Shown here: positions 29,018-59,560 of the stretch, piece after piece
How positions within the stretch are numbered: position 1 is the stretch's first letter
How the letters are laid out: every line of letters begins with the position of its first letter
The notes under the pieces: generated by a model
The model's input: the letters and a program-made list of their open reading frames with translations, nothing else
Databases searched by the model: none
What the model was told of the DNA's origin: nothing
Translations under genes and position numbers: made by a program
Assembly: GCA_014239555.1 (NCBI GenBank)
Contig: JAAZYR010000001.1
Location: 248,001-312,000 of the forward strand
DNA length: 64,000 nt
DNA from: Acidimicrobiales bacterium
GTDB lineage: Bacteria > Actinomycetota > Acidimicrobiia > Acidimicrobiales > Poriferisodalaceae
Direction of reading: 5' to 3'

Positions 29018-30661
29018 ATGTCAGTCGATTCATTGGATATAAGCCTTCACAGTTCTGCGGGCCGAGTGGAGTCCACCGATGTTGACGTGGTAGTCGTCGG
29101 CGCCGGGTTTGCAGGCATGTACATGCTCCATCGACTTCGAGAGATGGGTTATTCAGTGCAGGTCTTCGAAGCGGGTACAGACGTGGGTGGTACTTGGTAT
29201 TGGAACAGGTATCCGGGTGCTCGATGCGACGTGGAGAGCCTCGAGTACAGCTACAGCTTTGATGAAAAACTCCAACAAGAATGGGAGTGGACCGAACGCT
29301 ATTCAAGCCAACCCGAGATCCTTTCTTACGCAAACCATGTTGCCGATAGGTTCGATCTTCGTCGTGATATCCGCTTTGAAACTCGAGTCGAGTCAGCTGC
29401 TTTCGACGAAGATGAGAACGCTTGGTTTGTCCGTACTAGTGATAAAGCGCTGACGGTCGGACGGTTCTTTGTTATGGCAACCGGATGTCTTTCCTCAGCA
29501 ACCACGCCGGATATAAAAGGCAAAGATGAGTTCTCTGGAACTATGGCCCATACGGGTCGATGGCCAAAGGAAGGTCTGGATCTGAAAGGTAAACGCGTCG
29601 GTGTTATCGGGACGGGCTCTTCAGGAGTTCAAGCTATCCCTGTCATAGCTGCACAATGCGATGAGCTCATAGTCTTCCAACGCACCCCCCAGTACACGGT
29701 GCCAGCAAGAAACGCTGGGCTAGATGACGATCGACAGAATGAAATAAAAAGCCGATACGCAGACTTCCGAGCAGCAAACTTTGCGATGCCACAGGCCCTA
29801 GGGTCCGAGGTTTCGAAATACAACGATTCGATACACGACGTATCAGAAGAGGAACGCCGAGAAAGATTGCAAGAGGCATGGGATCTCGGGGGAACTCTCT
29901 TTCTTGCCTCATTCACCGATGTGTTACTAGATGAGTCAGCGAACGTGCATGCTCAAGATTTTGTGCGAGAAAAAATTAGTGAGATTGTGAGCGACCCCGA
30001 AACCGCTTCGAAACTCACCCCAGAGCACATCATCGGCTGTAAGCGATTAGTGATCGACACCGACTACTTCGAGACTTTTAACCGACCCAATGTGCGTCTA
30101 GTCGACGTGGGAAATGAACCAATCCAACGAATAACCGAATCCGGATTGTCTACGAAGTCCGAAGACTTCGAGTTCGACGTATTGGTCTTCGCGACCGGTT
30201 TTGACGCGATGACGGGTTCGATACTGCGTGTTGATATAACGGGCCGCGCGGGAACCACAATTCAAGAAAAATGGTCGGCTGGTCCGCGCACTTATCTGGG
30301 ACTTACCGTGCCAGGTTTCCCCAACATGTTTACGGTGTCCGGACCCGGCAGCCCCTCGGTGCTGACCAACATGATTATTTCGATAGAACAGCACGTCGAA
30401 TGGATCAGTGATTGCATCTCATGGCTAGATGAGCACCAATATTCGACCATCGAGGCAAAAACCGAAGCTGAGCAAGCCTGGGTTGATCACGTCAATGCCA
30501 AAGCAGAAAGAACTCTTTTCCCAAGTTGCAACTCTTGGTATCTCGGGGCCAATGTTCCCGGTAAGACACGTGTGTTTATGCCGCTTCTCGGATTTCCAGG
30601 CTACGTCCGTCGCTGCGACCAAGTTGCCGAAAATAATTACGAAGGGTTTGTCCTCCAATGA
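29018..30661 (+). CDS. Baeyer-Villiger-type flavin monooxygenase
   Basis: FAD/NADPH monooxygenase that inserts oxygen next to a ketone to give an ester or lactone. Seen: first Rossmann motif GAGFAGM near residue 29, then GGTWYWNRYPGARCD, the BVMO fingerprint FSGTMAHTGRWP (F-x-G-x3-H-T-x2-W), and second Rossmann motif GVIGTGSSGVQ. 547 residues is full length. ATG at 29018. Its stop overlaps the start of the SMP-30 gene (ATGA), tying it to a lactonase-like protein and a downstream hydrolase. A second, interrupted BVMO gene lies at 54052. Confidence 0.93.
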   Translation: MSVDSLDISLHSSAGRVESTDVDVVVVGAGFAGMYMLHRLREMGYSVQVFEAGTDVGGTWYWNRYPGARCDVESLEYSYSFDEKLQQEWEWTERYSSQPEILSYANHVADRFDLRRDIRFETRVESAAFDEDENAWFVRTSDKALTVGRFFVMATGCLSSATTPDIKGKDEFSGTMAHTGRWPKEGLDLKGKRVGVIGTGSSGVQAIPVIAAQCDELIVFQRTPQYTVPARNAGLDDDRQNEIKSRYADFRAANFAMPQALGSEVSKYNDSIHDVSEEERRERLQEAWDLGGTLFLASFTDVLLDESANVHAQDFVREKISEIVSDPETASKLTPEHIIGCKRLVIDTDYFETFNRPNVRLVDVGNEPIQRITESGLSTKSEDFEFDVLVFATGFDAMTGSILRVDITGRAGTTIQEKWSAGPRTYLGLTVPGFPNMFTVSGPGSPSVLTNMIISIEQHVEWISDCISWLDEHQYSTIEAKTEAEQAWVDHVNAKAERTLFPSCNSWYLGANVPGKTRVFMPLLGFPGYVRRCDQVAENNYEGFVLQ

Positions 30662-52713: not shown

Positions 52714-52849
52714 TGTACCGTGGCAATGTCCGTTCAGTTTCGGAGTCCGACCCCGTTCGTACGGTTTCCACTAATTGGGTAAGACATTTGCCCGATCACT
52801 GAACCTGGCTTCACCTGAAGTCAAAAATACGTCCGAGGAGGACAGCAGC

Positions 52850-53896
52850 GTGGAACGAGAAAAGGCACTCGATATGGCACTGGCGCAAATTGAGCGCCAA
52901 TTTGGCGAAGGCGCTGTCATGAAAATGGGTGAGCGCGGCCAAATGAAAGTTGAAGCCGTGTCATCAGGCAGTCTGGCAATCGACGTCGCTCTCGGCATTG
53001 GGGGTCTTCCGCGAGGGCGAGTTGTCGAGGTTTATGGTCCTGAAGCATCGGGGAAGTCCACCTTGGCGATGCACGTCGTGGCGGAAGCCCAACGCACGGG
53101 GGGAATCTGCGCTTATGTAGATGCCGAGCATGCGATGGACCCGGATTATGCCAAAAACATCGGTGTTGATGTAGATGAACTACTTATCTCCCAGCCTGAC
53201 ACTGGCGAGCAAGCTCTTGAGATTACGGACATGTTGATTCGTTCGGGAGCTATTGATGTTGTCGTTATCGATTCAGTAGCAGCGCTTACACCAAGAGCTG
53301 AAATCGAAGGCGAAATGGGCGATACCCATGTCGGTTTACAAGCCCGATTGATGTCACAAGCCTTACGAAAACTCACCGCCAATCTGAACAAAACAAAGAC
53401 CATCGTTATCTTCATCAACCAGTTACGAGAAAAGATCGGCGTTATGTTCGGCAGTCCCGAAACAACGCCTGGCGGTCGAGCCCTAAAGTTTTACTCTTCG
53501 ATTCGTATCGACATCCGCCGAATAGAAGCCATCAAATCTGATGGCGAGGTCACGGGTAGTCGGACTCGTATCAAAGTCGTTAAAAACAAAGTCGCACCCC
53601 CATTTCGACAGGCCGAATTCGACATTATGTATGGCAAGGGAATCAGCCGCGAAGGGTCACTAGTAGATGTTGGCGTAGAGCAAGGTATCGTCAAAAAGTC
53701 TGGTGCTTGGTACACCTACGAAGGTGAACAGCTAGGCCAAGGCAGAGAGAACGCAAAACAATTTTTGACCGCGAACCCTGAGATCATGGTTGAGATTGAC
53801 GGGCGAATAAGGTCGCAACTCGGTATGGGTGACTCATCAATCGACGACGCAGTGGTCAACGACGAAAATGAAGTAGTAGAAGTCGCCGAGGACTAG
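52850..53896 (+). CDS. recA: recombinase RecA
   Basis: ATP-dependent strand-exchange protein and LexA coprotease. Seen: [22 protein letters not shown] at the start, Walker [17 protein letters not shown], the L1/L2 region with [14 protein letters not shown], and an acidic C-terminal tail. GTG at 52850 is chosen because a perfect GAGGAGG (52835-52841) stands 8 nt before it and the 348-residue product has normal length and N-terminus; the frame is open to a TTG at 52775 without ribosome-binding site. Two LexA boxes lie upstream and an intrinsic terminator follows, so it is monocistronic with no recX. Confidence 0.97.
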
Positions 53897-54051: not shown

Positions 54052-55833
54052 ATGAGGGTGATGACCGACAAGCAGGAAAAGCCGCAGAACGTCTTTAACT
54101 TCGACTACACACGCGAGTCGCAAGAACGTCCACCACAGGACTACTACGACGACATCAAAGACAAATATGCCGCCCAGCGTGACTTGCGGCTTGGTTATCG
54201 ACCGCCAGGAACCGATGGCTACACGTCAGACTTGACGGGCGATTTAGCGAAGTACGCCGTAGATCCTTATGGCGATAAAGTCGCTGAGCGAGAAGCGATC
54301 GACGATTCAGTTGAGGTTCTGTTTATCGGTGGTGGCTTCTCAGCGTTACTGACGTCGGCCCGACTCAGAGAGAAGGGTGTTGAGAGCATCAGGATCGTCG
54401 AACGCGGCGCCGATGTTGGAGGGACTTGGTACTGGAATCGCTACCCGGGAGTTGCGTGCGATGTTGTGGCTTATGACTATTTGCCACTTCTCGACGAGAC
54501 CGGGTATGTCCCGACCCGTCATTACGCCGGCGGCGAAGAGATTTTTCAATACTGCAAACAGATAGCTGAACGTTTCGATCTGTATGAGCTCGCCGTTTTC
54601 GGTACCACAGTGACGTCAACAGTTTGGGATGAGGCCACAGAAATGTGGCATGTGGGGACTGACCGCGGTGACACCATCCGTGCACAATTCGTGATTTGTG
54701 CAAACGGCACACTCTCAAAGCCAAAACTTGCAAAGATCGACGGGATCGAAAAGTTCGCCGGCCATTCATTCCACACATCTCGATGGGATTACGAATACAC
54801 GGGCGCAGAACTTGAGGGTTTACGAGACAAACGTGTTGGGATAATCGGAACGGGCGCGAGTGCTGTTCAAGCGATACCGCAGTTAGGCAAAGCTGCAAAA
54901 GAGTTGATTGTTTTTCAACGAACTCCGTCATCGATTGACGTGCGGGATGATTGGGAGACCGATCCTGAGTGGGCTGCGACGTTAGAGCCGGGTTGGCAAT
55001 CTGAACGACGCACTCGAGCTATCGAAGGACCACAAATCTCGGACGCAGTAAAGGCACGTAGAGCGGCGTTGTCGCGTGAAGAAAAGATTCGACGCCAAGA
55101 AAACGCCAACATCGACGCCATGATGCGGATTCACAAACGAATTGATGAAGTAATCGAAGATCCTGAGACCGCAGAGTCGTTAAAGCCGTGGTACATGCTG
55201 ATGTGCAAGCGGCCCTGCTTCCACAATGAATATCTACCTACCTTCAATCTCCCCACAGTCACACTCGTCGACACTAAGGGCGAAGGGATCACAGAAATCA
55301 GCGAAGCGGGCCCGGTATTCGACGGGACGCAGTACGACGTTGACGTGCTCATTTACGCCACCGGATTCGAAGTCCAACAAACCGGGATTTATAACCGAAT
55401 CGAGGGCGAAGGTGGTCAGGAACTCAACGAGAAATACGTCGATGGAATACGAACCCTGGTCGGGATTCACTCCCAGGGCTACCCAAACCTTTTCATCATG
55501 GGTTGATACCAAGCGTTCTTTGCATTCAACCTGACCTATGTTCTCAATAGCCAAGGTGAACATATTGCTGAGTGCATCGACTTTGTGCGCAATAACGGTA
55601 TCCACAGCTTGGATTGCGACACCGACGCAGAAGAGTGGTGGGTGCAAGAAGTCATTGCTCACCGAGGGAAAACCAGTCGAAACCAGGACTGTACCCCGGG
55701 TTATTACAACTTCGAAGGGGCAGAGAACCGGCGACAGGACGGCAACTACAACGGGACAATGAAACAATATTTAGGGCACATGTCCCACATTCGAGACAAC
55801 ATGGCGGATCACTTCGTTTTCACCCAACGATAA
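54052..55833 (+). pseudogene. Baeyer-Villiger-type monooxygenase gene with an in-frame TGA
   Basis: The first 484 codons encode a flavin monooxygenase: N-terminal extension of about 85 residues, GGGFSALL, GGTWYWNRYPGVACD, BVMO fingerprint FAGHSFHTSRWD and GIIGTGASAVQ. At 55504-55506 a TGA follows PNLFIMG. Reading on in the same frame gives 108 more codons, YQAFFAFNLTYVLNSQGEHI to DHFVFTQR, with DCTPGYYNFEG, the C-terminal end expected for this long BVMO subfamily. So one base change (for example to TGG, CGA or GGA) would restore a ~593-residue protein. ATG at 54052 or 54061. It may be a real nonsense mutation, a recoded or read-through stop, or a sequencing/assembly error. Confidence 0.85.
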
Positions 55834-55885: not shown

Positions 55886-56350
55886 CTATTCTCCCGTATC
55901 GCGCAGGGTCACCAAGCTGTACACCGCAGTGGTTTCACTCTGCCGGATCTGAACTGAGATGAGACGGTTTTTCCCCCTCCGGTTCAATACACGGCCTTCG
56001 ACGTTAAATATGCCTTCGCGAATCGGTTCGAAGTAATCAACACGCATATTGATTGTTGATTGGAACCCCGCTGGAGGGTTTGAATCGGTCCTTGACGTAT
56101 AAAGCGCTACGAGATCTACGTACGCGCCAGTAAACCCACCAAACAATTGTTTCTTGGGATTGAGACAACTCTCTGGAAGGTGGCATTCCAGCAGGAGTTC
56201 GCCACTACCTCGGCGCAATACTTTCCAGTCGTACGCTTCCAGAAGGTCGCCGGCAGGGTGGCCGCGATTAATCAAACGCCCTTCGGGAACTTCTTCTGCC
56301 CATGGCCGCTTACCGTCAATTGAATTGCTCACAGTGAGATTCAACTCCAT
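55886..56350 (-). CDS. hotdog-fold thioesterase (PaaI-like)
   Basis: A 154-residue acyl-CoA thioesterase-type protein. Seen: central helix region NPKKQLFGGFTGAYVDLVALYTSR, which occupies the place of the PaaI HGG helix, then the strand with MRVDYFEPIREG. ATG at 56350, 11 nt from the divergent miaB start. Catalytic residues are not certain; the function is assigned by fold pattern. Confidence 0.7.
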   Translation of the reverse strand: MELNLTVSNSIDGKRPWAEEVPEGRLINRGHPAGDLLEAYDWKVLRRGSGELLLECHLPESCLNPKKQLFGGFTGAYVDLVALYTSRTDSNPPAGFQSTINMRVDYFEPIREGIFNVEGRVLNRRGKNRLISVQIRQSETTAVYSLVTLRDTGE

Positions 56351-56361
56351 GACTACCTCTC

Positions 56362-57828
56362 GTGCCCAATACCCTGTTGAGCGTGAGTGGAAAGTATGTG
56401 GTCCGCACCTACGGGTGTCAGATGAACGAGCATGATTCTGAACGCATAGCGGGCTTGCTCGAAATGGATGGTTTGGAGCAAACCGATTCGTTTGACGACG
56501 CCGACGTCATCGTTCTGAACACATGCTGTATTCGAGAAAACGCGGACAACAAACTTTACGGGCAATTGGGAAACCTCAAGAAGTTAAAGGAGGAACGCCC
56601 TGATCTCCAGATTGCAGTTGGGGGATGTCTTGCTCAAAAAGATCGCGAAATTATTCAAGACAAAGCCCCTCACGTCGATGTCGTTTTCGGTACCCACAAC
56701 GTCGCGCGAGCGACCGGGTTGTTGGCCGAGGCTCGCATCAGTGGTCCGATAACCGAAATAATTGAAGAGTCGGAAGTTTTCCCGTCAGCACTTCCCGTCA
56801 AACGAGATGCTAGCTACGCGGCCTGGATGACTATTCAGATCGGATGCGACAATTCGTGCGCTTTTTGTATCGTGCCGGCGGTCCGCGGCAGAGAAATCTC
56901 TCGCCCTTACAACGAACTTGTTCGAGAAGTCGAAGAGTTAGCAGCTTCCGGTATCACCGAGGTCACTCTTTTGGGGCAGAACGTGAATAGCTACGGTCGA
57001 GATCTCACGCTGAAACTTCGGGGTGGCGAATTGCCGCCCGACGCTGAAGATCTCGCAGGGAAAGTTTGGGTCGCCGGAAGCCACACAGCTCGCCCACTTT
57101 TCTCCGATTTACTTCGTTCTGTCTCAGAAGTAGAAGGGATTCGTCGAGTCCGTTACACCAGCCCGCACCCAAAGGACCTACGCCCCGAAACCATCACCGC
57201 AATGGCAGAAGTAGCTGAAATATGTGAGCACCTGCATCTTCCTCTTCAATCAGGTAGCGATGAGGTCCTATCAGCCATGCACCGTGGTTACACAGCGGAC
57301 CGTTACCTGGCAAAGGTTCATGCCGCTCGGCTCGAAATCGTTGATCTAGCTCTTAGCACCGACATCATTGTCGGGTTTCCGGGCGAGAGCGACAGTGACT
57401 TTGAGAAAACGTTAGAGGTCGCGGCAGAGGCCAGGTTTGATAACGCTTACACCTTTGTTTATTCCCCTCGCCCAGGGACTCAAGCCGCAGAACTAGTCGA
57501 CAAATACGTAGCTTCTTCGGTTGCGTCGACGCGAATGGAACGGTTACGCAAAGTTATTGAACGTTCAAGCCGGCTGGGAAACGAGTCCAGAATCGGGCAT
57601 TCCGAAGAGGTCATTGTGGAGGGGCGCTCGAAGCGCGACCCGAATATATTGACGGGACGAACCCGCCACAATCGTCTGATCCACTTCCCAGCGAATCGGC
57701 CAATCAGGGCTGGTTCCTATGCCCAGGTGAACGTAACTGCTGCTCGGACGTTCAATCTCATGGGGGAGTTAGTTGAAGTGACTGCGTCGCCCAAACATCG
57801 GACGCGAATACCGGTGGTCGCTTCCTGA
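56362..57828 (+). CDS. miaB: tRNA-2-methylthio-N6-isopentenyladenosine37 synthase
   Basis: Radical-SAM methylthiotransferase acting on i6A37 of tRNAs, after MiaA. Seen: VRTYGCQMNEHDSERIAGLL, NTCCIRENADNKLYG and VGGCLAQKD (three Cys for the auxiliary cluster), radical-SAM CDNSCAFCIVPAVRG, and a C-terminal TRAM domain. 488 residues; an insertion of about 35 residues after NVNSYGRD is usual in actinobacterial MiaB. GTG at 56362 (or 56383). miaA follows 14 nt later. Confidence 0.95.
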   Translation: MPNTLLSVSGKYVVRTYGCQMNEHDSERIAGLLEMDGLEQTDSFDDADVIVLNTCCIRENADNKLYGQLGNLKKLKEERPDLQIAVGGCLAQKDREIIQDKAPHVDVVFGTHNVARATGLLAEARISGPITEIIEESEVFPSALPVKRDASYAAWMTIQIGCDNSCAFCIVPAVRGREISRPYNELVREVEELAASGITEVTLLGQNVNSYGRDLTLKLRGGELPPDAEDLAGKVWVAGSHTARPLFSDLLRSVSEVEGIRRVRYTSPHPKDLRPETITAMAEVAEICEHLHLPLQSGSDEVLSAMHRGYTADRYLAKVHAARLEIVDLALSTDIIVGFPGESDSDFEKTLEVAAEARFDNAYTFVYSPRPGTQAAELVDKYVASSVASTRMERLRKVIERSSRLGNESRIGHSEEVIVEGRSKRDPNILTGRTRHNRLIHFPANRPIRAGSYAQVNVTAARTFNLMGELVEVTASPKHRTRIPVVAS

Positions 57829-58771: not shown

Positions 58772-59560
58772 ATGCGGCTAACTAAACATCACGGTTTGGG
58801 TAACGACTTTCTTGTCGGGTTAGTGGAGCAGGCACCTCGTTCTTTGGCGTCGTTTGCCCGCGAAATCTGCGACCGTCGAACTGGTATTGGCGCAGACGGC
58901 CTCGTATTAGGACTTCCGGGTAAAAAAGGTGCCGATTTAACGATGCTGTTGCATAACTCTGACGGATCGATCGCCGAAATGAGTGGCAACGGCATTCGAT
59001 GTCTTGCCCAAGCCCACGCGATGGCCCATCGAACAGGCGCGACTTCCCTCGAAATCGATACCACCGGCGGGCGCCGACAGGTCGAAATCGACAGTGATGG
59101 CCACAACGCGGAGGCGTCGGTCAACATGGGGCCAGTGGGTCCCGGACCTGGGGTAGATGACCGGATTTTGGCAGAGACTGTTGGGTCCTTGGTGGGCACT
59201 GCTGATCTTGGAAACCCGCACCTCGTGCTTGTTGTTGACGACTTAGCGGCAGTCGATATCGGCGAACTCGGCGCGCGATACGAAGCTCTATATCCGCAAG
59301 GAATCAATGTTGAGTGGGTCGCTGCAGACCCAAACAACGGCAACAACCTCGACATGCTGGTATGGGAGCGCGGAGCGGGAGTTACACAAGCATGTGGAAC
59401 GGGCGCGACAGCGGCCGCGTTTCTCGCGCATGAGTGGGGATTAGTCGAACAGCAGGTGAACGTTCGGATGCCTGGAGGAGAAGTGCAAGTGGTTGCCAAC
59501 GAACACCCACTGCTCATCGGGCGAACGGATTATGTTGCAAGTATTGAACTTTCCACATGA
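58772..59560 (+). CDS. dapF: diaminopimelate epimerase, first catalytic Cys replaced by Ser
   Basis: Converts LL- to meso-diaminopimelate. Seen: KHHGLGNDFL at the start, the first active-site block AEMSGNGIRCLAQ and the second TQACGTGATAAAF. In characterised DapF both blocks hold a catalytic Cys (CGNG and ACGTG); here the first is Ser (residue 71), the second Cys (208) is present. ATG at 58772 with GGGAG at 58761-58765 is chosen; the frame is open to GTG 58748. 262 residues is close to normal. The stop overlaps the hflX start by ATGA. Confidence 0.9.
   Translation: MRLTKHHGLGNDFLVGLVEQAPRSLASFAREICDRRTGIGADGLVLGLPGKKGADLTMLLHNSDGSIAEMSGNGIRCLAQAHAMAHRTGATSLEIDTTGGRRQVEIDSDGHNAEASVNMGPVGPGPGVDDRILAETVGSLVGTADLGNPHLVLVVDDLAAVDIGELGARYEALYPQGINVEWVAADPNNGNNLDMLVWERGAGVTQACGTGATAAAFLAHEWGLVEQQVNVRMPGGEVQVVANEHPLLIGRTDYVASIELST

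Follow-up and report, generated by a model that had tools for sequence, protein, structure and literature searches.

An in-frame TGA in a conserved recA-adjacent Baeyer-Villiger monooxygenase gene of an Acidimicrobiales draft genome, read as a probable nonsense mutation or a consensus error

The window analyzed here is a stretch of 64,000 nucleotides from an Acidimicrobiales bacterium (Poriferisodalaceae; GCA_014239555.1, contig JAAZYR010000001.1, positions 248,001 to 312,000), whose genome is called G000 below. Its plus strand carries recA (52775..53896), a gene for a type I Baeyer-Villiger monooxygenase-like protein (BVMO; frame 54052-55833) and miaB (56362..57828), so the placement of the BVMO gene downstream of recA in the original prediction is borne out. 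Of the same-family loci that extend far enough to reveal these neighbours, the large majority have recA upstream and miaB downstream. Translation of the frame gives 484 residues ending in PNLFIMG (truncated ORF, 54052..55506), an in-frame TGA at 55504-55506 and 108 further codons closed by a TAA at 55831-55833 (gene remainder, 55507..55833), as had been described. The TGA is the sole interruption; both halves lie in one frame and one base change accounts for it, in agreement with the earlier statement that no frameshift is needed. The motif DCTPGYYNFEG, previously taken as the C-terminal end, is indeed in the post-stop frame; about 37 more residues follow it, so that it does not form the actual C-terminus. 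A small minus-strand ORF (55886-56350) lies between the BVMO gene and miaB and is matched there only in congeners, not at the other family loci.

The BVMO protein is assigned by Pfam as FMO-like, and its best solved structure is 5mq6, followed by phenylacetone monooxygenase (PAMO, 1w4x). The 5mq6 protein, which we take to be the polycyclic ketone monooxygenase commonly named PockeMO, is an intact 655-residue chain, unlike the interrupted window gene, and is the best structural match both before and after the stop. The post-stop part alone matches the C-terminal part of 5mq6 (E 1.4e-4), which, together with the intact 593-codon orthologues, indicates that it belongs to the same protein. The 484-residue part has both Rossmann GxGxxG-type motifs and the intervening FxGxxxHxxxW-type fingerprint (GGGFSALL, FAGHSFHTSRWDY and GTGASA; the fingerprint reads FAGHSFHTSRW). 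PAMO aligns over query residues 80-535, and its catalytic Asp and Arg (D66 and R337) correspond to Asp137 and Arg387 of the window protein. Unlike the intact PAMO, the window gene is interrupted near the equivalent of PAMO residue 437, between the catalytic Arg and the active-site bulge. The complete C-terminal part with the bulge, from PAMO residue ~437 onward, is thus missing from the 484-residue product and present in the frame beyond the TGA. The bulge and the roles of the catalytic Arg and Asp in BVMOs have been described (PMC4966971), and for MoxY, likewise a type I BVMO, C-terminal truncation yielded neither soluble protein nor any conversion (PMC6315744). Because the bulge is lost by alignment and the truncated MoxY was insoluble without conversion, loss of function is likely, and the 484-residue product is probably inactive. 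Assignment to the neopentalenolactone/pentalenolactone D synthase PtlE (NF045818) was rejected, with 540 bits against an NCBIfam cut-off of 1100 bits.

An orthologue at E below 1e-200 was found in 31 of the 39 family genomes, and among those listed only the G000 gene has an internal stop; among the family orthologues compared, none naturally ended at the stop with the remainder encoded by a gene of its own. Comparing the codon with its homologues, as the original prediction had suggested, gave glycine at codon 485 in every one of 43 close orthologous sequences (identity of at least 64%) and the stop in G000 only. The nearest relatives, the congeners G003, G004 and G001 (95-96% identical), have GGA, and the others have GGA, GGC, GGG or GGT. 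With glycine in all 43 and GGA in the three nearest, the stop therefore corresponds to one G>T change at 55504, private to G000 among the genomes compared. The intact orthologues at 95-96% identity have 593 codons without internal stop, and conservation across the close orthologues is high in the region of the stop. The recA-adjacent BVMO genes of Acidimicrobiaceae bacterium NAT188 (L040), G003 and G001 lie in the same recA-miaB locus, have 593 codons at 87-96% identity and show GGA at codon 485 with no internal stop, in contrast to the TGA of the window gene. An apparent gene split in G004 was rejected, being a contig break. There, G004:C103 and G004:C17 (L121 end, L122 end) abut with a one-base gap at window position 55512, eight bases past the first base of codon 485, while other G004 joints here overlap by about 24 bases; an ambiguous base may have caused the contig to be cut here. 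A bin labelled Candidatus Binatota also contains this BVMO type in two copies (L041, L047; WTHD01000466.1, WTHD01000447.1), with identities of about 70% and no recA or miaB adjoining.

As to how TGA is read in G000, it closes 27 of the 56 window ORFs that are 120 aa or longer, and among the tRNA loci read with ARAGORN the UCA anticodon occurs only in tRNA-Sec, with no suppressor tRNA found besides it. Wholesale TGA reassignment is thereby excluded, as had been concluded earlier from the window, and the congener comparison also shows no such reassignment. G000 carries selA, selB and tRNA-Sec, and its formate dehydrogenase alpha subunit has an in-frame TGA at the expected selenocysteine (Sec) position (CNRTUHAPSV); UGA is probably decoded in this formate dehydrogenase. 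These selenocysteine genes and formate dehydrogenase loci are L135, L136 and L140 (G000:C68:20887-40700) and L182:1154-3328. Because of this machinery and the formate dehydrogenase TGA, a selenocysteine reading of the BVMO stop had to be tested, in which the gene would encode a new flavin monooxygenase selenoprotein with Sec replacing the conserved glycine beside the active-site bulge. Such a reading is exceedingly improbable: the TGA is in one genome only, and the site is Gly, never Cys, in the close relatives, though all five congeners (six genomes of the genus with G000) keep selA, whereas Sec normally evolves from redox-active cysteine (PMC1794560). Downstream of the BVMO TGA no special hairpin was found (-9.2 kcal/mol, z -0.57); this test is weak, as the formate dehydrogenase control was unremarkable too (z +1.01), and in the congener G001, with GGA at codon 485, a strong hairpin forms at the corresponding position. 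A local-hairpin scan was blank at the window site though folding shows a hairpin there, and the blank was not counted as a negative. Programmed or leaky read-through, in which an ordinary near-cognate tRNA would allow a share of full-length protein to be made, would agree with the intact and constrained tail; however, a very young stop explains the tail equally well, none of the relatives seen has the stop, which leaves no conserved program, and the tRNA loci offered no suppressor. Of the options raised originally, recent inactivation and sequence error are therefore kept, while read-through or recoding became very unlikely after the comparison with relatives.

On balance, it is proposed here that the lineage or strain of this assembly acquired the stop recently, by nonsense mutation. 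A G>T transversion would have turned GGA (Gly 485) of the conserved 593-codon gene into TGA, where release factor 2 presumably ends translation; the resulting protein would retain its FAD and NADPH domains, lack both the active-site bulge and the C-terminal portion, and probably be insoluble or inactive. All relatives examined have a sense codon at this site and G000 alone has a stop, the pattern of a pseudogene arising by nonsense change. Against the three nearest relatives, dN/dS of the G000 gene (Nei-Gojobori) is 0.04-0.05 before the stop and 0.03-0.06 after it. The tail is thus still constrained, so the stop is either very young or a consensus error. Another private non-synonymous G>T (D496Y, from GAT to TAT; 55537..55539) occurs 11 codons after the stop, with 33 bases between 55504 and 55537; 40 of 42 close orthologues have Asp at this position. 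It fits either relaxed constraint or locally poor sequence, and beyond it no decay of the tail is visible. The conservation of the recA-adjacent BVMO in the family suggests that its loss would be selected against, which counts against a nonsense mutation.

A one-base consensus error, in which the organism has GGA and the assembled draft is wrong at 55504, would give the same picture and is the main rival, held to be possible rather than probable. The G000 assembly is a fragmented draft (68 contigs, 95.6% complete), the stop is private, the tail looks fully constrained, and one poor read stretch could give two private G>T changes at conserved residues 33 bases apart. However, the window has 51 private G>T changes over ~38 kb, and at this density a second one within 33 bases has, as a rough estimate, about a one in ten chance. 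The non-synonymous/synonymous counts of private G>T are 10/20 in the window against 22/89 in G003 and G001, a slight excess that is not significant (Fisher p 0.14). Also against an error, of 52 G003 genes having a window homologue, only the BVMO gene shows a clearly internal stop, and no further clearly internal stops or frameshifts were seen in these ~52 genes. The contig is therefore not generally error-ridden, and general low contig quality is unsupported as an explanation. This survey used non-overlapping ORFs, as all stop-to-stop frames were swamped by shadow ORFs; the remaining stops that it flagged are confined to the first 80 codons of the G003 ORF, a region of uncertain start position. 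An improbable alternative is that the truncated protein is still useful, or that the two parts form a split enzyme, with the stop tolerated or adaptive. Both nucleotide-binding domains are kept in the 484-residue part and an ORF with a GTG start exists at 55585, but this 82-aa ORF would leave out 26 residues, those of the bulge region among them, a start codon is absent near the beginning of the post-stop part, no homologue is split at this point, and the surroundings of the stop are highly conserved. In a dapF-like gene of the window, two more private non-synonymous G>T changes (V>F, R>L) lie four bases apart (59420-59424).

On these sequence comparisons, the BVMO stop is best regarded as an ordinary nonsense mutation or a one-base consensus error and not as a new way of reading TGA. 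One nonsense change in a draft genome is an ordinary event; a literature search for such changes in marine drafts brought up no useful paper. Returning to the nonsense mutation, if the base is real, the lineage would have lost, or be losing, an otherwise conserved recA-adjacent oxygenase. Caution is needed with automatic annotation, which at this locus would yield a BVMO of 484 aa and possibly a stray ORF of 82 aa. The other matches to the BVMO within G000 are paralogues with 55% identity or less, and the 2.7 Mb genome has several more BVMO-like or flavin monooxygenase-like genes, including one at ~29075-30514 of the window.
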